DNA of 48,008 nt from Erysipelotrichaceae bacterium (GTDB lineage Bacteria; Bacillota_I; Bacilli_A; Erysipelotrichales; Erysipelotrichaceae): assembly GCA_030531215.1 (NCBI GenBank), contig JAUNNY010000007.1, forward strand, positions 1 through 48,008, in the 5' to 3' direction. The position numbers were made by a program, and so were the translations under genes. Below the pieces are notes generated by a model. That model did no database searches. It was not told the DNA's origin and was given only the letters and a program-made list of their open reading frames with translations. Shown piece after piece: positions 17,861 to 46,368 of the stretch. The number at the start of each line of letters is the position of its first letter. The first letter of the stretch is position 1.

Positions 17861-17899
17861 AACTACATTTTACATCATCTGTGATAATATTTATTTGTA

Positions 17900-18000
17900 A
17901 CTCAGGGCAAGGTGTGATTCCTTGATTGGCGGTAAACCCCGCGAAGTTAATTGAACTTGTGAAATTCAAGTGGCAACAGTATAGTCTGGAAGAAAGAGGT
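17900..18000 (+). promoter_or_regulatory. FMN riboswitch (RFN element) of ribU
   Basis: Conserved RFN blocks are visible in order: CAGGGCAAGGTGTGATTCCT, GGCGGTAAACCCCGCGAAG, CTTGTGAAATTCAAG, GGCAACAGTATAGTCTGGA, then AGAAAGAGG. The element ends only 4 nt before the ribU ATG, and the ribosome binding site AGAGG (17995-17999) is its 3' edge. There is no room for a terminator, so control must be translational: FMN binding would hide the ribosome binding site. Confidence 0.92.
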
Positions 18001-18004
18001 TAAG

Positions 18005-18598
18005 ATGAAAAAGTATTTAAGTATTCACAATATTGCAAAGATTGCAGTGTTAGCTGCAATTGCAGCAGTACTTATGATTATCGATGTTCCTATTTTTGTA
18101 GCTCCTAGTTTTTATAAATTAGATGTATCAGATTTACCTTGTTTAATTGGTGGCTTTTCAATGGGAGGTGTCCCATGTGTATTCATAATAATAATTAAAA
18201 TAATATTGAAGTTGTTATTTAAACCTACGTCAACTGCTTTTGTAGGTGAAATGGCTGCTTTGGTATGTTCTTTGGCTTTTTGCCTTCCTGCTAGTTATAT
18301 ATATAAGAAAAACAGAACCAAGAAGGGCGCTATAAAAGCAATGGTTATTTCAACGATTATTGTTACTGTTGTGTCTTGTTTGGCTAATTATCTATTTATT
18401 ATTCCCGCCTACGTCAATTTATTTCATATGCCTTTAGAAGCAATTATTGCTGCGGGTAAAGAAATTTTCCCTATTATAAATAACAAACTAGATTTTGTGT
18501 TATTATGTGTGGCACCATTTAACTTAATTAAATATATACTGGTAGATATTTTGTCGCTCGTATCATATAAACACGTATCGCCTTTACTAAAGTCATAG
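18005..18598 (+). CDS. ribU: Riboflavin ECF transporter S component
   Basis: A membrane substrate-binding subunit for riboflavin that works with the shared EcfT-EcfA1-EcfA2 module, which is not encoded in this window. It has 197 residues and about six hydrophobic segments. The typical RibU stretch is FVAPSFYKLDVSDLPCLIGG, followed by GEMAAL. Assignment is strengthened by the FMN riboswitch immediately upstream, whose ribosome binding site it uses. It is transcribed alone and followed by only a weak hairpin near 18599-18612. Confidence 0.92.
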   Translation: MKKYLSIHNIAKIAVLAAIAAVLMIIDVPIFVAPSFYKLDVSDLPCLIGGFSMGGVPCVFIIIIKIILKLLFKPTSTAFVGEMAALVCSLAFCLPASYIYKKNRTKKGAIKAMVISTIIVTVVSCLANYLFIIPAYVNLFHMPLEAIIAAGKEIFPIINNKLDFVLLCVAPFNLIKYILVDILSLVSYKHVSPLLKS

Positions 18599-37656: not shown

Positions 37657-38052
37657 ATGAAAGAATTAGCGCTAAGATTACATTATGGTGATGATTTATT
37701 AAAGGAAATATCTAAAGCTTGTAGTGATAGCACAGGCATAGTTTTATCAGGAGTAGGCTGTGTATATAAATTACATCTACGATTAGCTAAAGCTGAAGAT
37801 TATATAGAAGTAACTGATGACTTTGAAATCACATCATTGACAGGAACAGTGTCACATGGCAAGTGTCATATTCATGGTTGTTTTTCGGATAACAAGGGGA
37901 ATACTATTGGTGGTCACATATGTGAAGGATGCCTAATAAACACGACATGTGAGTTAGTTATAGGTATCTTAGAAGACTACGATTCTGCTCGAGAGTTTGA
38001 TGAAAAGACAGGTTATAATGAAATCGTCTTTAGGAGAATAAAAAATGATTAA
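37657..38052 (+). CDS. PPC-domain (DUF296) protein
   Basis: A 131-residue single-domain protein. The opening fits the family (GDDLLKEISKAC), as do SGVGCVYK, the conserved core HIHGCFSDNKGNTIGGHICEG, and CELVIGILEDY. PPC/DUF296 proteins form trimers; in plants they accompany AT-hooks, while bacterial roles are poorly known. The histidines in HIHG...GGH could bind a metal. It overlaps the CobW gene by 8 nt, so a shared metal-related task is possible but unproven. Confidence 0.82.
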   Translation: MKELALRLHYGDDLLKEISKACSDSTGIVLSGVGCVYKLHLRLAKAEDYIEVTDDFEITSLTGTVSHGKCHIHGCFSDNKGNTIGGHICEGCLINTTCELVIGILEDYDSAREFDEKTGYNEIVFRRIKND

Positions 38053-39037
38053 TGTTTACATTGTGTCAGGTTTTTTAGGATCTGGCAAAACAACTTTTAT
38101 TAAGAAACTATTAGAGGAAAAGCATTTTGAAAAATTGATGCTTATTGAAAATGAATTTGGTGAAGTTGGCGTTGATGGCGCTTTCTTTGAAGAAGGTTTA
38201 AAAATTAGAGAAATCAATAATGGATGTATTTGTTGTTCATTACAAGGTGATTTTGCTGATGCTTTAGAAGAAATAGAAGATATGGGTGTTTCTGATTTGA
38301 TTATTGAACCAAGTGGCGTAGGTAAATTATCAGAAATAATTAATGTTGTAAAAGATGATCCTGATTTTAGAATTGTCTCTCATATTTGTATAGTTGATGT
38401 TAAAACATGCAAAAAATATCATACTAATTTTAAAGAATATTTTGATGATCAAGTTAAAGCAGCAAACGCAATCATTCTTTCGCACTTAGATGTTGCCAGT
38501 GATGAAAATAAACAGACAGCTATTGAGATTATAAAAGAAATCAATGATGATTGTTACATCTCTACTAAACCAATAGCTGAGTATAGTATTGATGAATTGT
38601 TAGATATTATTGTTAATGGTGGAGATATTCTTCCTGATTTTGATGAAGGAGAGCATCATCATGATGAGTGTCATCATTGCCATCACGATGAAGAGCACGA
38701 ACATCATCATCACCATCACGATGAAGAACATGAACACCATCATGAACATCATCATCACCATCATGATGACGATGATGAAGATGAATTGTTTAAGAATCAT
38801 ATAATTCGTACAGACTATGTATTTACTAAGGATGAATTAGTAGAAATATTGAATAATGTTGATGAAGATATTATTAGAATAAAAGGCTATGTTTTTGGTA
38901 AAGAAGGTATGTTGTATTTTAACTATGTACTAAATGAATACAATATTTATGTTGGTAATCAAAGACAAGAGGCTTTAGTTTCGATAATTGGCACATCAAT
39001 TGATGCTGAACATTTCGAGGAAGTATTCCATGGTTAA
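38045..39037 (+). CDS. CobW/COG0523 metal-chaperone GTPase with histidine-rich loop
   Basis: A G3E GTPase. The P-loop is GFLGSGKTTF (9-18), the metal-binding CxCC is at C61-I-C63-C64 (NNGCICCSL), and the magnesium Asp/Glu region is LIIEPSGVGK. Residues 204-240 hold 24 histidines with interspersed Asp/Glu, an obvious metal store between the G domain and the C-terminal CobW_C domain. The family inserts or delivers Zn, Co or Ni; zinc is most likely for COG0523 in Bacillota, but no Zur box was recognised. It overlaps the next gene by 8 nt. Confidence 0.92.
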   Translation: MINVYIVSGFLGSGKTTFIKKLLEEKHFEKLMLIENEFGEVGVDGAFFEEGLKIREINNGCICCSLQGDFADALEEIEDMGVSDLIIEPSGVGKLSEIINVVKDDPDFRIVSHICIVDVKTCKKYHTNFKEYFDDQVKAANAIILSHLDVASDENKQTAIEIIKEINDDCYISTKPIAEYSIDELLDIIVNGGDILPDFDEGEHHHDECHHCHHDEEHEHHHHHHDEEHEHHHEHHHHHHDDDDEDELFKNHIIRTDYVFTKDELVEILNNVDEDIIRIKGYVFGKEGMLYFNYVLNEYNIYVGNQRQEALVSIIGTSIDAEHFEEVFHG

Positions 39038-39959
39038 ACCTGTTTATGTTTTCTCTGGTTTTTTAGATTCAGGAAAAACTCGCGCAATTAAAGAATCATT
39101 ATGTAACCCTAATTTTAATGATGGCGAGTCAACTTTAATTATTGCTTTCGAACAAGGCGATGAAGAGTATGATGAAAAGTTTTTGAAAGCCTGTAATTGT
39201 GAGGTTCTATATTTAGATTCAATTAACGAATTAACAATTGCTAAACAAAAACAAATAGATCATCAATATCCTGTGGAAAGAATTTTTATTGAGTTCAATG
39301 GTATGGAAGATGACAATATTCTATATGAAACAGGATTTATATCTAATTGGGAATTAGCACAAACACTTACGACAATTGATGCTTCAAGTTTTAATTTATA
39401 CATGACAAATATGCGTCAGTTTATGTTTAATCATATCGTTAACGCTGAAGTTGTTATCTTAAATAGAGCTGATAATGTTGATCGCCGATATCTTCGAAAT
39501 AATATTAAGTCAATTAATCAAATGGTTGAAATCATTTATGAAGATAAAGATGGCAATGTCACAAATAAGATTGATGATGATATGTTTGATGTTTCAAAAG
39601 ATTTAGTGATTGATGATATTGATTATGGTTTGTGGTATATGGATGCGGTAGATAATCCAACTAAATATGACAACAAGGTTATTACTATCAAGGTTAAATA
39701 TGTTGAAGAAGTTACTGAATATGATAATGTCTTAATAATGGGTAGAAAAGCAATGGTATGTTGTGCAAATGATATCCAGGATATTGCTTTAACTATTGTC
39801 AACATCAGAAAGAAAGATATTGATATTAATAAATACTATTTAATAAAAGGAAATGTTCATTGTCTACAAGCTACTGATGGCAACAAGACTTGTGTGCTAT
39901 ACGCAAAAGAATATAAAGAAGCAGAGACACCAAAAGAAGAATTGGTAACTTTTAATTAA
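39030..39959 (+). CDS. Second CobW-like GTPase with a DUF1980-like C-terminal region
   Basis: A 310-residue G3E-type protein. The P-loop is GFLDSGKTRAI (10-20) and a magnesium-region FIEFNGMEDD follows, but the CxCC metal motif is missing. The C-terminal half (about 210-300) is not a normal CobW_C. It has NVLIMGRKAMVCCANDIQDIA, which resembles the cysteine motif of YcgQ/DUF1980 proteins, found with COG0523 genes. ATG 39030 is chosen because GAGGA lies 8 nt upstream and the P-loop fold starts there; an upstream ATG at 38988 would read through another gene. Confidence 0.82.
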   Translation: MVKPVYVFSGFLDSGKTRAIKESLCNPNFNDGESTLIIAFEQGDEEYDEKFLKACNCEVLYLDSINELTIAKQKQIDHQYPVERIFIEFNGMEDDNILYETGFISNWELAQTLTTIDASSFNLYMTNMRQFMFNHIVNAEVVILNRADNVDRRYLRNNIKSINQMVEIIYEDKDGNVTNKIDDDMFDVSKDLVIDDIDYGLWYMDAVDNPTKYDNKVITIKVKYVEEVTEYDNVLIMGRKAMVCCANDIQDIALTIVNIRKKDIDINKYYLIKGNVHCLQATDGNKTCVLYAKEYKEAETPKEELVTFN

Positions 39960-40777: not shown

Positions 40778-40840
40778 GTCTTTTATTTGTATTTTTTTAG
40801 TGATAAACTTTATTTGTAAATTAAAGAAAAGGAGGGAATT

Positions 40841-40966
40841 ATGAATTATTTAAATCGAAAATTCAATGATTGCATCTTTTCTTTAGTTAATGGTATGGAT
40901 ATTATAATTAACATCTTAGATTTACGACTACGTGGCTTACGTAGCATTATTATTGTGGGTTGTTAA
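40841..40966 (+). CDS. Branched-chain amino-acid leader peptide of the liv operon
   Basis: A 41-residue ORF with a near-perfect ribosome binding site (AAGGAGGG at 40829-40836) before ATG. Of 41 residues, 8 are Ile, 6 Leu and 2 Val, concentrated at MDIIINILDLRLRGLRSIIIV. It stops 38 nt before a terminator hairpin and 90 nt before the binding-protein gene. This is the layout of a ribosome-mediated attenuator: scarcity of charged Ile, Leu or Val tRNA would stall the ribosome on this stretch. The peptide itself probably has no function. No T-box was seen. Confidence 0.78.
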   Translation: MNYLNRKFNDCIFSLVNGMDIIINILDLRLRGLRSIIIVGC

Positions 40967-41043
40967 TTATAATAGATATCATTCACGTACATTTACTTAA
41001 TATAGATGAGCTGAATGTTATCACGTGAGCTCATCTTTTATTT
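40928..41043 (+). promoter_or_regulatory. Candidate attenuator with alternative pairings
   Basis: A hairpin 40928-40933 with 40939-40944 lies in the leader's last codons. Segment 40929-40934 (TACGTG) can instead pair with 40984-40989 (CACGTA). Segment 40983-40988 (TCACGT) can pair with 41023-41028 (ACGTGA), which touches the terminator stem. These mutually exclusive ACGTG pairings would allow ribosome position to decide termination. Confidence 0.55.
41004..41043 (+). terminator. Attenuator terminator before the liv binding-protein gene
   Basis: AGATGAGCT (41004-41012) pairs with AGCTCATCT (41028-41036) around a 15-nt loop, followed by TTTTATTT. It lies between the leader peptide and the transporter operon, so it must be bypassed for expression. 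Confidence 0.82.
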
Positions 41044-41056
41044 AAGGGGGAAAAAC

Positions 41057-42235
41057 ATGAAAAAATTATTAGTGGTACTTCTTTCCATATTCTGCGTATT
41101 TAGTTTAGTAGGATGTGGTGGTTCTTCAAATGAAGAAGGAACTGGTGATGTTGAATCCGATGTCATCACAATTAAACTAGGTTGTTCTGGACCATTAACT
41201 GGCGATGCTGCTGTTTATGGTAAGGCTGTTGAAAATGCTGCAAAACTAGCTGTTCAAGAAATCAACGATTCAGATTCTAAGATTAAGTTTGATTTTAAGA
41301 TGGAAGATGATGAAGCTGATACTGAAAAAGCTGCAACTGCTTATTCTGCTTTATATGACTGGGGTATGCAAGTATCATTATTCACAGTAACTTCTGGATC
41401 AGGAGCTAACGTTGCTACATTATATGATGAAGATAAGATTTTTGCTTTGACACCATCTGGTTCTTCAACTGCTTTAGTTTATACTGATACAACAAACTAT
41501 AAAGGCAATTTCCAAATGTGCTTCACAGATCCCAACCAAGGTGTTGCTTCTGCTGATTACATGAAAGATAAATTTGCTGACAAGAAGATAGCTGTTATCT
41601 ATAAGAATGATGATGTTTATTCTGCAGGTGTTTATGAGAAATTTGATTCACAATCAAAAGCTAATGGATTAAATGTTGTTTATGTTGGTTCATTTACTGA
41701 TGATACTTCTACAGATTTCTCTTCACAAATTCAAGGTGCTAAAGATGCAGGTGCAGATTTAGTTTACTTACCAATTTATTATCAACCAGCTTCAATCATT
41801 CTAAAACAAGCTAGTGATAAAGATTATGCACCAATATATTTTGGTATTGATGGTATGGATGGTATCTTAACTCTTGAAAACTTTGATACATCATTAGCAG
41901 AAGGTGTATATCTATTAACACCATTTGCTGCTGATGCTACAGATGATGCAACAGTACATTTCGTTAATGCATTTGAAAATGCATATGGTGAAGAACCTAA
42001 CCAATTCGCTGCTGATGCATATGACTGTGTTTACGCAATTAAACAAGCATTGGATAATATTGGTTTAGATAATATAGATCCAGATAATTTATATGATGCC
42101 ATGATTGAACAATTCACAACAATGACATTTGATGGAATTACTGGTACAAGTGTTACTTGGGCTGAGAACGGTGAAGTTTCAAAAGCTCCAAAAGCTGTTG
42201 TAATTAATAACGGCGTATACGTATCTGCTGATTAA
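41057..42235 (+). CDS. livJ: Branched-chain amino-acid ABC transporter, substrate-binding lipoprotein
   Basis: A periplasmic-binding-type lipoprotein captures Leu/Ile/Val at the outer membrane face. Signal and lipobox are visible (MKKLLVVLLSIFCVFSLVGC), then a Ser/Gly/Glu linker and a type 1 binding fold opening IKLGCSGPLTGDAAVYGK. The 392 residues are usual. ATG 41057 has AAGGGGG 6 nt upstream; an upstream in-frame start at 41015 would lie in the terminator and is rejected. Specificity for branched-chain residues is inferred from LivHMGF and the leader peptide. Confidence 0.93.
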   Translation: MKKLLVVLLSIFCVFSLVGCGGSSNEEGTGDVESDVITIKLGCSGPLTGDAAVYGKAVENAAKLAVQEINDSDSKIKFDFKMEDDEADTEKAATAYSALYDWGMQVSLFTVTSGSGANVATLYDEDKIFALTPSGSSTALVYTDTTNYKGNFQMCFTDPNQGVASADYMKDKFADKKIAVIYKNDDVYSAGVYEKFDSQSKANGLNVVYVGSFTDDTSTDFSSQIQGAKDAGADLVYLPIYYQPASIILKQASDKDYAPIYFGIDGMDGILTLENFDTSLAEGVYLLTPFAADATDDATVHFVNAFENAYGEEPNQFAADAYDCVYAIKQALDNIGLDNIDPDNLYDAMIEQFTTMTFDGITGTSVTWAENGEVSKAPKAVVINNGVYVSAD

Positions 42236-42294: not shown

Positions 42295-43176
42295 ATGTCT
42301 TTTTTATCTTATTTACTTTCAGGCCTAGGATTAGGTAGTGTATATGCAATCGTTGCGATTGGATATACCATGGTCTACGGTATCGCAAAAATGTTGAACT
42401 TTGCCCATGGCGACATCATTATGGTTGGTGGCTATGTGGCTTTTTATGCATTTGTTAGATTTGGAATACCAGCCTGGATAAGTATTATTTTATCTGTTGT
42501 TGTTTGTACTATTTTAGGTGTAACAATTGAAAAGCTTGCTTATAAGCCTTTAAGAAAAGCTTCGTCATTGTCAGTGTTGATTACGGCTATTGGTGTAAGT
42601 TATTTCTTAGAGAATGGTGCACAATTATTATTTGGTACTGATACAAAGATATTCCCATCTTTAATTACTGAAGGATCATTAAAACTATTTGATGGTCAAT
42701 TAATTATTTCTTATTTAAATATCATAACTATTGTATGTTGCCTATTAATTATGGCGTTACTTACAATCTTTATTAATAAAACAAAAATTGGTAAAGCAAT
42801 GAGAGCGTGTGCCGAAGATAAAGATGCTGCTAAACTTATGGGTATCAATGTTGATTCAACAATATCATTTACCTTTGCGATTGGCTCTGGTTTAGCTGCT
42901 GTTGCGGCAATACTTCTTTGTTCAACATATCCATCTTTATCACCAACTCTGGGTTCAATGCCTGGAATTAAAGCTTTTACAGCGGCTGTATTCGGTGGTA
43001 TTGGTTCAATTCCTGGAGCGTTGTTAGGTGGCTTGTTGTTGGGTATTATTGAAACATTTACTAAAGCTTATATTTCAACACAATTATCTGATGCAATTGT
43101 ATTTGCTGTCTTGATTATTGTTTTATTAATAAAGCCAACTGGTTTACTTGGAAAGAAAGAGAATGTGAAGGTATAA
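42295..43176 (+). CDS. livH: Branched-chain amino-acid ABC permease LivH
   Basis: A 293-residue polytopic permease with about eight membrane segments. The signature opening is GLGLGSVYAIVAIGYTMVYG then MLNFAHGDIIMVGGY. RACAEDKDAAKLMGINV is the cytoplasmic coupling loop. Pairs with LivM in the membrane. AGGGGAAAT lies upstream of the ATG. It is followed by livM after 4 nt. Confidence 0.94.
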   Translation: MSFLSYLLSGLGLGSVYAIVAIGYTMVYGIAKMLNFAHGDIIMVGGYVAFYAFVRFGIPAWISIILSVVVCTILGVTIEKLAYKPLRKASSLSVLITAIGVSYFLENGAQLLFGTDTKIFPSLITEGSLKLFDGQLIISYLNIITIVCCLLIMALLTIFINKTKIGKAMRACAEDKDAAKLMGINVDSTISFTFAIGSGLAAVAAILLCSTYPSLSPTLGSMPGIKAFTAAVFGGIGSIPGALLGGLLLGIIETFTKAYISTQLSDAIVFAVLIIVLLIKPTGLLGKKENVKV

Positions 43177-43180
43177 AGAT

Positions 43181-44245
43181 ATGAAAAACTTCATAGATAT
43201 TCTTTTTGGAAAGAAAAATATTAAACGTACTATCAGTTTTGCGATAGTAATTTTGGCATATGTTATCATTACCGTTCTAACGAATACAATTAGAGTTTCT
43301 AGATTGTTTTCTAGTATTCTAGTACCTGTATGTTGTTATATTGTTTTAGCATTATCACTAAACCTTTGCGTTGGTTTTTCTGGTGAACTGTCATTAGGAC
43401 ATGCCGGTTTCATGGCTGTAGGCGGTTTTACTGCGATTGTTGTTTCAGGTATTTTATCTTACAGCATTCCTAATACGATTATAAGATTACTAATTGCGAT
43501 TATAGCTGGTGGATTGGTTTCTGGCTTATTTGGTTTAGTAATTTCTATTCCAGTTCTTAAATTGTCGGGTGATTATCTTGCGATTGTTACGTTGGCGTTT
43601 GGTCAAATAATTAAATCGATTATTAATAATGTTTATTTAGGTTATGATGCTCAAGGCATACATTTTTCATTTGTTACTAATACAATTGAATTAGCTGAGG
43701 GTGGAAGAATGTTGTTGCTTGGTCCTATGGGATCAGTTGATGTTGAAAAGATTTCATCATTTACTGCTGGGTTTATTTTGATTCTTTTTGTTTTATTTGT
43801 AATTTATACATTAATTGGTAGTAAAAATGGTAGGGCTATTACTGCTGCTAGAGATAATAGAATAGCTGCTGAATCAATTGGTATTAATATTACTAAGACA
43901 AAGACTTTGGCGTTTGTTGTATCAGCTGTTTTAGCTGGTATGGGTGGTGCATTATACGCATTGAATAATACTTCATTACAACCTTCGAAGTTTGATTTTA
44001 ATACTTCTATTTCGATTTTGGTTTATGTTGTATTTGGTGGTTTGGGTAATATTACTGGAACAATTATCGCTACTTCAATTTTGTATGTGCTTCCTGAATT
44101 ATTAAGATCTTTACAAGATTATCGTATGTTGATTTATTCAGTTGTTTTAATTGCTATTATGTTAATTACAAACAATACTTATTTAGGACAAGTAATTCAA
44201 AAAGTGAAGTTAATATTTATGAAGAAAGGAGATAGCCATGAGTGA
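43181..44245 (+). CDS. livM: Branched-chain amino-acid ABC permease LivM
   Basis: A 354-residue permease partner of LivH. Typical LivM motifs: LSLNLCVGFSGELSLGHAGFMAVGGF, LRLSGDYLAIVTLAFGQI-like LKLSGDYLAIVTLAFGQII, and the coupling loop AITAARDNRIAAESIGIN. About ten hydrophobic segments. An AAGG ribosome binding site precedes it, and it overlaps livG by 8 nt. Confidence 0.94.
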   Translation: MKNFIDILFGKKNIKRTISFAIVILAYVIITVLTNTIRVSRLFSSILVPVCCYIVLALSLNLCVGFSGELSLGHAGFMAVGGFTAIVVSGILSYSIPNTIIRLLIAIIAGGLVSGLFGLVISIPVLKLSGDYLAIVTLAFGQIIKSIINNVYLGYDAQGIHFSFVTNTIELAEGGRMLLLGPMGSVDVEKISSFTAGFILILFVLFVIYTLIGSKNGRAITAARDNRIAAESIGINITKTKTLAFVVSAVLAGMGGALYALNNTSLQPSKFDFNTSISILVYVVFGGLGNITGTIIATSILYVLPELLRSLQDYRMLIYSVVLIAIMLITNNTYLGQVIQKVKLIFMKKGDSHE

Positions 44246-45002
44246 ACATGTATTAGAGACTAAATCCTTAGGTATCGATTTTGGTGGTCTAACTGCTGTT
44301 AATAATTTAAATATCTATGTTGATGCTCATGAAATTGTTGGTTTAATTGGACCAAATGGTGCAGGCAAAACAACAGTCTTCAATCTTCTAACAAAAGTTT
44401 ATGAACCTTCTAGAGGCGCTATTTATTTGGATGGTGAAGATATTAAGAAGCTTGATACCGTTGGTGTTAATAAAAGTGGTATCGCTAGAACTTTCCAAAA
44501 TATAAGATTATTTAGCAACATGAGTGTTATTGATAACGTTAAGGTTGCCATGAATAATGAAAGTAATTATTCATTCTTTGATAGTTTGTTACATGATCTT
44601 AAATATTTTAATGAAGAAAAATCGATTGAAGAAAAAGCTTTAAAATTATTAGATATCTTTGATTTAAAGAATGAGAAAGATACTTTAGCTGGTTCTTTAC
44701 CATATGGTGCTCAAAGAAGATTAGAGATTGCAAGAGCTTTAGCTACTTCACCAAAAGTATTGTTATTAGATGAACCAGCAGCTGGTATGAATCCTCAAGA
44801 AACTGAGGAATTAATGAATACTATTAGATTTGTAAGAGAGAATTTTGATGTTTGTATCTTATTGATTGAACATGATATGTCATTAGTTATGGGCATATGT
44901 CAGAGAATATATGTATTGAATTACGGCATGTTGTTAGCGAAAGGAAGCCCTGATGAAATCAAGAATAACAAAGAAGTAATCGCGGCTTATTTAGGTGAAT
45001 AG
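44238..45002 (+). CDS. livG: Branched-chain amino-acid ABC transporter ATPase LivG
   Basis: An ATPase subunit of 254 residues. Walker A is GPNGAGKTT, Q-loop GIARTFQNIRLF, signature region LPYGAQRRLEIARAL (variant of the LSYGxQR seen in LivG), Walker B VLLLDEPAAGMNP, and H-switch IEHDMSLVMG. AAAGGAG upstream. Forms a heterodimer with LivF under LivH/LivM. Confidence 0.94.
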   Translation: MSEHVLETKSLGIDFGGLTAVNNLNIYVDAHEIVGLIGPNGAGKTTVFNLLTKVYEPSRGAIYLDGEDIKKLDTVGVNKSGIARTFQNIRLFSNMSVIDNVKVAMNNESNYSFFDSLLHDLKYFNEEKSIEEKALKLLDIFDLKNEKDTLAGSLPYGAQRRLEIARALATSPKVLLLDEPAAGMNPQETEELMNTIRFVRENFDVCILLIEHDMSLVMGICQRIYVLNYGMLLAKGSPDEIKNNKEVIAAYLGE

Positions 45003-45003
45003 T

Positions 45004-45705
45004 ATGTTAAAAGTTACAGATTTAGTTGTTCGCTATGGCATGATAGAAGCTATTAAAGGTATTTCTTTTGAAGTTAATGATGGAGAAATCATAACTTTAA
45101 TCGGTGCTAATGGTGCAGGTAAAACTACAACGATGCATACATTATCAGGATTATTAAAACCACATAGTGGCACGATTGAATTCGATGGAAAGAATCTTTT
45201 AAAAGTTCCTGCTCATAAAATTGTTGAAATGGGCATTGCACAATGTCCTGAAAGAAGAAGAATATTTGCTTCTCAATCCGTTGAAGATAATTTAATCCTT
45301 GGTGCATATACAAGAAAAGATAAAGATGTTGAAAAAGATTTAATAAATGTTTATCAACTTTTCCCAAGATTATTAGAAAGAAAAAAACAGTTAGCTGGAA
45401 CATTATCTGGTGGTGAACAACAGATGTTGGCTATGGCTAGAGCCTTAATGGCTAAACCAAAAATTATGTTATTAGATGAACCTAGTATGGGTTTATCGCC
45501 ATTACTTGTTAAAGAAATATTTAATATTATTAAGGATATTAACTCAACAGGTGTTACAGTATTATTAGTAGAACAAAATGCCAGAATGGCTTTGAATATC
45601 GCCTCAAGAGCATATGTACTTGAATCAGGTAAAATAGTTTTATCTGGTACTGGTAAAGAGTTGCTTAACTCAGAAAGCGTAAAGAAAGCTTACTTAGGAG
45701 GATAA
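45004..45705 (+). CDS. livF: Branched-chain amino-acid ABC transporter ATPase LivF
   Basis: An ATPase subunit of about 233 residues. Walker A GANGAGKTT, signature LSGGEQQMLAMARALM, Walker B IMLLDEPSMGLSP, and H-loop replaced by LVEQNARMAL, as is normal for LivF. ATG 45004 is preferred to GTG 44995 since AGGTGA (44993-44998) lies 5 nt before it. It starts 1 nt after the livG stop. Confidence 0.93.
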   Translation: MLKVTDLVVRYGMIEAIKGISFEVNDGEIITLIGANGAGKTTTMHTLSGLLKPHSGTIEFDGKNLLKVPAHKIVEMGIAQCPERRRIFASQSVEDNLILGAYTRKDKDVEKDLINVYQLFPRLLERKKQLAGTLSGGEQQMLAMARALMAKPKIMLLDEPSMGLSPLLVKEIFNIIKDINSTGVTVLLVEQNARMALNIASRAYVLESGKIVLSGTGKELLNSESVKKAYLGG

Positions 45706-45708
45706 ATC

Positions 45709-46368
45709 ATGTACGTTAAAGACAAAATGAGCAAAGAATTACAAGTTGCCTTTGCAAAGATGACTATTTCTGAAGTATTAGAATTGATTAAGGATTCTGA
45801 TCTTCACCGTTTGCCTGTTGTAGATAGTAAGAACAATTTGATTGGTCTTATTACAAAGGGTTCAATAAAAAGAGATACTAAGAGTTCTACATTGTCTGTA
45901 TTTGAATTAAATTATCTTTTCAATAGTTTAAAAGTTGAAGATGTAATGATTAAAGGAGAAGACCTTCATACTATTTCTCCAGATGCTTTATTAGAAGAAG
46001 CCGCTTCAATTCTTCGTGAATATAAAGTAGGATGTCTTCCAGTTGTTGATAATGGCAACAAAGTAGTAGGTATCATTACACAAAACGATATTTTTGATGC
46101 CTTTATAGATATCTTGGGTTATCACAAAGATGGCACAAGATATGTTATTGAGATTGCTGAAGATAAACCAGGTGTGCTGAATGCTATATCTAAGTGTTTC
46201 TTAGATATTAATGTATCTATTTCAAATCTTGCTGTTTATAATACTGAAAGAGGTATTGAGCTTGTCGCTATTGCCGTAGGTGAGGGATCAGATAATTGTG
46301 ATGATATCCTTGCGAAGAACGGATATAAAGTTACAAGTAAAATTAGATTACAAAATAAAGAAGCTTAG
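45709..46368 (+). CDS. CBS-CBS-ACT sensor protein
   Basis: A 219-residue soluble protein. Two CBS motifs occupy about 5-60 (LHRLPVVDSKNNLIGLITKG) and 75-135 (VGCLPVVDNGNKVVGIITQND), followed by an ACT domain at about 143-215 (RYVIEIAEDKPGVLNAISK). The order resembles AcuB-type proteins. CBS pairs bind adenine nucleotides and ACT domains bind amino acids, so it could sense energy state and branched-chain amino acids for the transporter. It starts 3 nt after livF with GGAGG overlapping the livF end. No DNA-binding domain. Confidence 0.87.
   Translation: MYVKDKMSKELQVAFAKMTISEVLELIKDSDLHRLPVVDSKNNLIGLITKGSIKRDTKSSTLSVFELNYLFNSLKVEDVMIKGEDLHTISPDALLEEAASILREYKVGCLPVVDNGNKVVGIITQNDIFDAFIDILGYHKDGTRYVIEIAEDKPGVLNAISKCFLDINVSISNLAVYNTERGIELVAIAVGEGSDNCDDILAKNGYKVTSKIRLQNKEA

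Follow-up and report, generated by a model that had tools for sequence, protein, structure and literature searches.

Locus and leader reading frame

The window, the whole stretch of 48,008 nucleotides analyzed here, spans positions 1-48,008 of contig JAUNNY010000007.1 (G000:C13) of Erysipelotrichaceae bacterium GCA_030531215.1, a metagenome-type assembly of 1.16 Mb that is 69% complete. The closest named record, judged by LivJ, is Candidatus Colivicinus equi (Erysipelotrichaceae), at 90% identity. The window carries livJHMGF, an operon for import of branched-chain amino acids (BCAA), preceded by a short open reading frame (ORF):

40801..40809, + strand: tentative extended -10 element, TGaTAAACT, read from the sequence; TTAAACT-like motifs stand at the same position before the leaders of most relatives
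40829..40836, + strand: Shine-Dalgarno (SD) sequence of the leader ORF, AAGGAGGG, read from the sequence; AAGGAG-type SDs stand before almost all homologous leaders
40841..40966, + strand: leader peptide ORF of 41 codons, 16 of them Ile/Leu/Val
41057..42235, + strand: livJ, BCAA substrate-binding protein (PF13458, PRK15404)
42295..43176, + strand: livH permease (PF02653, PRK10740)
43181..44245, + strand: livM permease (PF02653, PRK11301)
44238..45002, + strand: livG ATPase (PF00005, PF12399, PRK11300)
44995..45705, + strand: livF ATPase (PRK11614)
45709..46368, + strand: CBS-pair protein (PF00571 twice), 3 bases 3' of livF and probably the last gene of the operon

A simple promoter scan reported no + strand promoter at 40801..40809. 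Elsewhere in the window, an FMN riboswitch (RF00050, 78.9 bits) lies at 17894-18005 on the + strand, and two adjacent ORFs of the CobW/G3E GTPase family occupy 38045-39959, the second with a DUF1980 C-terminal domain; this pair probably serves metal homeostasis, to judge from its domains.

The leader ORF translates as MNYLNRKFNDCIFSLVNGMDIIINILDLRLRGLRSIIIVGC*, and 12 of its 16 Ile, Leu, and Val residues fall in the final 25 codons. A preliminary description made from this sequence had noted the 41-codon frame with its strong SD and the BCAA codons that are densest near its end, and the translation confirms it. The T-tailed hairpin that it placed between the ORF and the liv operon is likewise present, at 41004-41043, with livJ starting at 41057. 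In the source sequence alone, 16 such residues in 41 are only mildly unusual against a 25% background (binomial P 0.037); the same holds for 12 in the last 25 (binomial P 0.012), a count reached by 3.5% of 25-residue segments from neighboring proteins. Taken by itself, the source sequence is therefore modest evidence for an attenuator and only suggestive; the leader is clearly more than chance because it is conserved in 28 genomes.

Conservation across the genus

A peptide search with the source leader alone reached only the closest species, and LivJ was therefore taken as the anchor for comparison. The genus, which lies near Candidatus Colivicinus within the Erysipelotrichaceae, is represented by 36 genomes, and LivJ was detected in 33. 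Of these 33, 28 have a leader of the same design before livJ, with an SD, an ORF, a segment after the stop codon, and the same type of terminator; five livJ-bearing members do not. The homologous ORFs end in patterns like VIIDVLVLRGLRGIIIMQAC. The preliminary description had proposed aligning the leader across relatives for a conserved peptide and covarying stems; in that alignment, the peptide is kept and the stems covary, as detailed below.

A covariance model, R1, built from 26 leaders finds 28 of the 36 genus genomes and gives strong matches nowhere except before livJ; since R1 was built from these very loci, this indicates uniqueness within each genome, not independent discovery. Weak R1 matches away from livJ (G062, G000:C8, G000:C19) were set aside as coding sequence or as terminators beside unrelated genes. 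Beyond the genus, R1 gave no strong match in 294 genomes of the same order, under strict filters that could miss distant forms. The element looks confined to the genus, judging by sequence comparison, because no such leader is seen at the livJ loci of the family's other genera (L081-L104; LivJ 54-64% identical).

Two further features were observed at the genus loci. About 25 genus members (e.g., L014, L016, and L025; the source species is not one of them) have another conserved hairpin, TAGWWACAG..CTGTWTCTATA, past the terminator and just 5' of the livJ SD, which perhaps plays a role in mRNA stability. The leader of locus L050 (genome G011; 372-474) has its ATG very near a likely -10 element (TTGACA..TACACT) with no evident SD, and may be translated from a leaderless transcript.

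Selection on the reading frame

A comparison of the two closest species gives a pN/pS of 0.11 for the leader and 0.14 for livJ. In other close pairs, the C-terminal half of the leader shows a pS of 0.38-0.51 and a pN of 0-0.05, and the N-terminal half is looser. The frame is under purifying selection and hence probably translated.

The pattern of substitution is informative about what is selected. Across 13 control columns of the alignment, Ile, Leu, and Val fill 296 cells and replace one another, and Phe or Met fill five. Phe and Met share the middle T of the codon, and would be expected at 24% from neighboring proteins; they make up 1.7% of the control columns. The free exchange of Ile, Leu, and Val together with the depletion of Phe and Met indicates that BCAA codons themselves are selected. 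The element comprises a short ORF with an SD, rich in codons for the amino acids whose import it would regulate.

RNA elements and helix covariation

The following RNA elements can be recognized in the source species:

40900..40911, + strand: segment 1, TATTATAATTAA, pairing with 40963-40974; the homologous 1:2 helix covaries in 26 sequences
40928..40944, + strand: in-ORF hairpin P0, CTACGTGGCTTACGTAG, directly before the Ile-Ile-Ile codons; -6.6 kcal/mol, covarying, and flagged as terminator-like by a simple scan
40963..40993, + strand: segment 2, which pairs with segment 1 in the protector and supplies the 5' half of the antiterminator, with GATATCATTCA at 40975-40985 and CACGTACATT at 40984-40993
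41012..41027, + strand: segment 3, TGAATGTTATCACGTG, the 3' half of the antiterminator, inside the terminator loop
41004..41043, + strand: intrinsic terminator between the ORF and livJ, with stem AGATGAGCT (41004-41012) / AGCTCATCT (41028-41036) and tail TTTATTT, -14.6 kcal/mol

The switch conserved in the genus consists of segment 1 TTATCGAT within the ORF, segment 2 ATCGATAA after the stop, and segment 3 TGTTATCG in the terminator loop, with a TTATC pairing as its core. The conserved P0 hairpin was absent from the preliminary description, which instead proposed that three ACGTG-containing segments (40929-40934, 40983-40989, and 41023-41028) pair alternatively. Alternative pairings are indeed conserved and covary, but the middle segment is TCACGTA, complementary to ACGTG, and ACGTG itself is found in the leader region of the source species only at 40930-40934 and 41023-41027. 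As a general rule, the ACGTG triplet was rejected, being specific to the source species and missing in the rest of the genus; the close relative L013 has lost ACGTG from segment 3. Two antiterminator registers are available in the source species, GATATCATTCA:TGAATGTTATC, which is homologous to that of the genus, and the CACGT register of the preliminary description. The ACGTGG of P0 can alternatively pair with 40982-40989.

Tests of all four helices (P0, 1:2, 2:3, and 3:4) used 26 sequences and named structures on alignments A1 and A2. Pairing is found in 89% of cells for P0 (CTACG..CGTGG) and in 85% for both 1:2 and 2:3, and slid controls pair far less for every helix. Three P0 pairs are changed on both sides, as in CTACC..GGTGG, CTACA..TGTGG, and CTGCG..CGCGG. 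Shuffle comparisons, whose figures are inflated by shared descent and count as support and not as probabilities, favor each of these helices: P0 is matched by at most 3 of 500 shuffles on most measures; 1:2 has 10 cells changed on both sides versus 4.9 in shuffles (4/500), its covariation being reached by 3/500; and 2:3 has 20 such cells versus 10.6 (1/500), with a covariation score reached by 0/500. The terminator stem is near-invariant across the genus, with compensated variants in the divergent members L036 and L052.

Duplex energies also favor partners from the same species. The native 1:2 duplex averages -17.2 kcal/mol versus -12.6 (sd 0.66) when partners are swapped between species, and the native 2:3 duplex -16.2 versus -13.1 (sd 0.53), a difference reached in 0 of 20000 permutations in both cases. 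The leader contains a 2:3 antiterminator and a 1:2 protector that are mutually exclusive, and an intrinsic terminator between the leader ORF and the first structural gene. In the source species alone, the evidence for the two exclusive helices is weaker: its 2:3 duplex reaches -15.6 kcal/mol (shuffle P 0.0125), and its 1:2 duplex does not outperform shuffled sequences (P 0.39).

Predicted attenuation mechanism

Sequence comparison reveals the ORF, the selection upon it, its BCAA codons, the terminator, the covarying alternative helices, and their link to livJ throughout the genus. These features support the leader-peptide attenuator of the preliminary description, and the leader is best read as a ribosome-mediated transcription attenuator of the livJHMGF importer, to which we assign a probability of about 0.87 on comparative and modeling grounds.

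On this reading, the leader ORF would be translated at once as RNA polymerase transcribes the leader. A shortage of charged Leu, Ile, or Val tRNAs would stall the ribosome on uncharged tRNA within the BCAA-rich stretch, roughly between codons -22 and -9 relative to the stop, where it would cover segment 1. Segment 2, beyond the stop codon, would then pair with segment 3; the terminator could not form, because segment 3 overlaps its 5' arm and loop, and livJHMGF would be transcribed. With sufficient BCAAs, the ribosome would reach the stop codon and cover segment 2, so that the terminator (3:4) forms and transcription in the cell ends before livJ. If the leader is not translated at all, 1:2 would form, the terminator would again form, and transcription would again end before livJ. 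P0 may act as a pause hairpin for RNA polymerase that keeps ribosome and polymerase in step. P0 and the following CATTATTATTGTG (40928-40957) roughly match the geometry of a hairpin-stabilized polymerase pause, with a short stem and a 10-nt spacer.

Stall scans were run with equilibrium folding models and an assumed ribosome footprint of ~32 nt placed at each codon; full-length equilibrium folding under-predicts switching in some species, and folding of the nascent RNA was added. In the nascent-RNA model, averaged over 28 leaders, antiterminator pairs rise from ~9 to ~13-15 for stalls at codons -22 to -9, positions at which the Ile/Leu/Val fraction is mostly 0.5-0.93. With the ribosome on the stop codon they drop to ~5-8, and without a ribosome, 1:2 prevails. 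On the genus average, the control codons are thus placed where a stalled ribosome is predicted to free segment 2.

The source species is less clear-cut. When its full leader is folded at equilibrium, predicted termination is 0.92 unstalled and falls to 0.30 with codon Leu26 in the A site. Folded as nascent RNA, the leader is predicted to form the antiterminator for almost every ribosome position, even the stop codon, so that its switch is less distinct than in the average over the genus. For the Ile-Ile-Ile run conserved in the genus, the prediction depends on the model: stalls at its first two positions would give no antitermination if base pairs may span the ribosome, and would give it if they may not.

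Alternative explanations

The strongest competitor is an arrest peptide, in which the nascent chain senses a free BCAA within the ribosome, much as the TnaC nascent peptide senses tryptophan, and the stalled ribosome drives the same RNA switch. Conservation does extend beyond the BCAA positions, to Arg and Gly in LRGLRG, to the Met that follows III, and to a Cys at the C terminus in 20 of the 28 leaders, and amino acid conservation of the leader in the closest pair equals that of LivJ. LRxLRG is, however, accounted for by the covarying P0 hairpin in the RNA. Within the run, Ile, Leu, and Val are also interchangeable, and indels alter how long it is and how far from the stop codon it lies, as would fit a response to codon supply rather than a fixed contact between peptide and exit tunnel. 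An arrest peptide is accordingly improbable.

Bacillota usually control BCAA genes by T-boxes, which abound in this genus (3-17 per genome), so that a T-box or other ligand-binding riboswitch, with an incidental ORF, deserves consideration; a candidate livJ riboswitch has also been described in Streptomyces (PMC11109978). Against this, segment 1 and P0 sit in a selected frame with synonymous changes, and the depletion of Phe and Met is a coding-level signal. Rfam covariance models, including amino acid leader families, found no family at the leader even at an E-value of 5, only weak chance matches, and the T-box model RF00230 (Stem I, T-box bulge) has no match there, though it detects T-boxes elsewhere in the genus genomes. 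We consider such a riboswitch very unlikely.

Similarly remote is the idea of a gene for a small (membrane) protein with its own terminator that merely lies beside livJ. Its hydrophobic composition and conserved frame would fit, but the element is never found apart from livJ in the genus scan, and covarying alternative helices join the coding region to the terminator loop. A chance ORF and terminator in an AT-rich intergenic region, which the weak single-sequence statistics would allow, is already refuted by conservation in 28 genomes with selection and covariation.

Comparison with known attenuators

Leader-peptide attenuation of BCAA biosynthesis is experimentally established in Listeria (PMC5864092). 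By that account, Listeria monocytogenes Rli60, the ilv-leu attenuator, resembles the genus leader in design: both belong to Bacillota and have a BCAA-rich translated leader with four segments that form alternative terminator and antiterminator hairpins. The same text gives Rli60 a 13-amino-acid peptide, a biosynthetic target, and CodY acting upstream, in all of which it differs, and does not mention an in-ORF hairpin such as P0. The BCAA response of Rli60 was shown experimentally there, whereas that of the genus leader is predicted from sequence.

Attenuation by a leader peptide is also supported for Staphylococcus aureus ilvD (PMC5794164). Like the genus leader, this attenuator has Ile-Ile-Ile-Leu-Leu codons and a downstream terminator and is conserved in its genus; unlike it, the target is biosynthetic, it works beneath CodY, and the proposed antiterminator pairs with the poly-U tail and not with the terminator loop and 5' arm (PMC5794164). 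The leaders of Escherichia coli ilvGMEDA, ilvBN, and leuABCD and the upstream ORF of Corynebacterium ilvB use the same mechanism and the same amino acids, but belong to other phyla and serve biosynthesis (PMC6123439, PMC11109978). BCAA leader-peptide attenuation has been predicted in other Gram-positives (PMC6123439).

The Streptomyces livJ motif also precedes a livJ-type gene and is thought to respond to BCAAs, but it is described as a candidate riboswitch that controls translation initiation and holds the SD within an internal bulge, with no upstream ORF in the description (PMC11109978). Bacillus subtilis bmrCD is an ABC transporter of Bacillota under ribosome-mediated transcription attenuation; it is a multidrug exporter responding to antibiotic pressure, not an amino acid importer (PMC4191407). 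In a 2010 survey, ABC transporters were the family with the most attenuation candidates in absolute number; the survey also reported that Firmicutes have regular leader peptides (PMC2965389).

At E. coli livJ, transcription was long ago reported to terminate prematurely, and the mechanism was reportedly not ascribed to a leader peptide. No liv or brnQ transporter preceded by a BCAA leader peptide was found in a literature search whose coverage excluded most subscription journals. As far as this literature shows, the mechanism is known and ordinary, and the importer target and the lineage are new. Leader-peptide attenuation in Bacillota being known for BCAA biosynthesis, the importer is the unusual part, and we agree with the preliminary description that a transporter target is less usual, given the Listeria and S. 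aureus examples (PMC5864092, PMC5794164).

A possible second class in Oscillospiraceae

At least eight of ~30 Oscillospiraceae-type livJ loci (L044, L045, L122, L131, L135, L137, L138, and L142) have a longer upstream frame, mostly rich in Ile, Leu, and Val, with an internal hairpin, GGACGCC..GGCGTCC, of which both sides change between members. In most, this is followed by T-rich Ile/Phe codons, ATTATTATT-like, and a T-tailed terminator-like hairpin lies nearer livJ. The hairpin and its Ile codons resemble P0 and the Ile run, which is terminator-like by simple scan in the source species. These frames are possibly a second class of liv leader.

A broader conjecture is that the Liv importers of several Bacillota orders are under an unrecognized kind of leader, in which a conserved in-ORF hairpin and the Ile run directly after it would couple the ribosome to RNA polymerase by means of a pause or early termination, besides the classical terminator/antiterminator switch. 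The genus (P0 and ATTATTATT) and the Oscillospiraceae (GGACGCC..GGCGTCC and ATTATTATT) would then be two versions. This idea is rather doubtful at present.

Metabolic context and significance

Among the 36 genus genomes, ilvC was found above cut-off in none, with positive controls detected in 14 of 14, and ilvD in two. Four genomes in all (G001, G002, G007, and G011) have ilvD-like genes, including the two over the cut-off, despite the absent ilvC; contamination, gene transfer, or a related dehydratase could explain them. No codY was found in the 36 genomes, and CodY control, considered for GAAAATT-like boxes upstream of livJ, was rejected for this reason. Judging from partial genomes, the genus appears unable to make Leu, Ile, and Val, reliant on BCAA uptake, and without the usual BCAA repressor. 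Given these absences of ilvC, CodY, and, in most genomes, ilvD, the importer would be a natural point of control.

None of the many T-boxes of the genus lies at livJ, so the leader would place a ribosome-based sensor where a tRNA-based one is expected, a natural example of one sensor exchanged for another. Here, a textbook mechanism that is known to control BCAA biosynthesis in Bacillota would act on BCAA import in an apparently uptake-dependent gut genus. The leader may also offer a marker of BCAA auxotrophy for uncultured gut bacteria.
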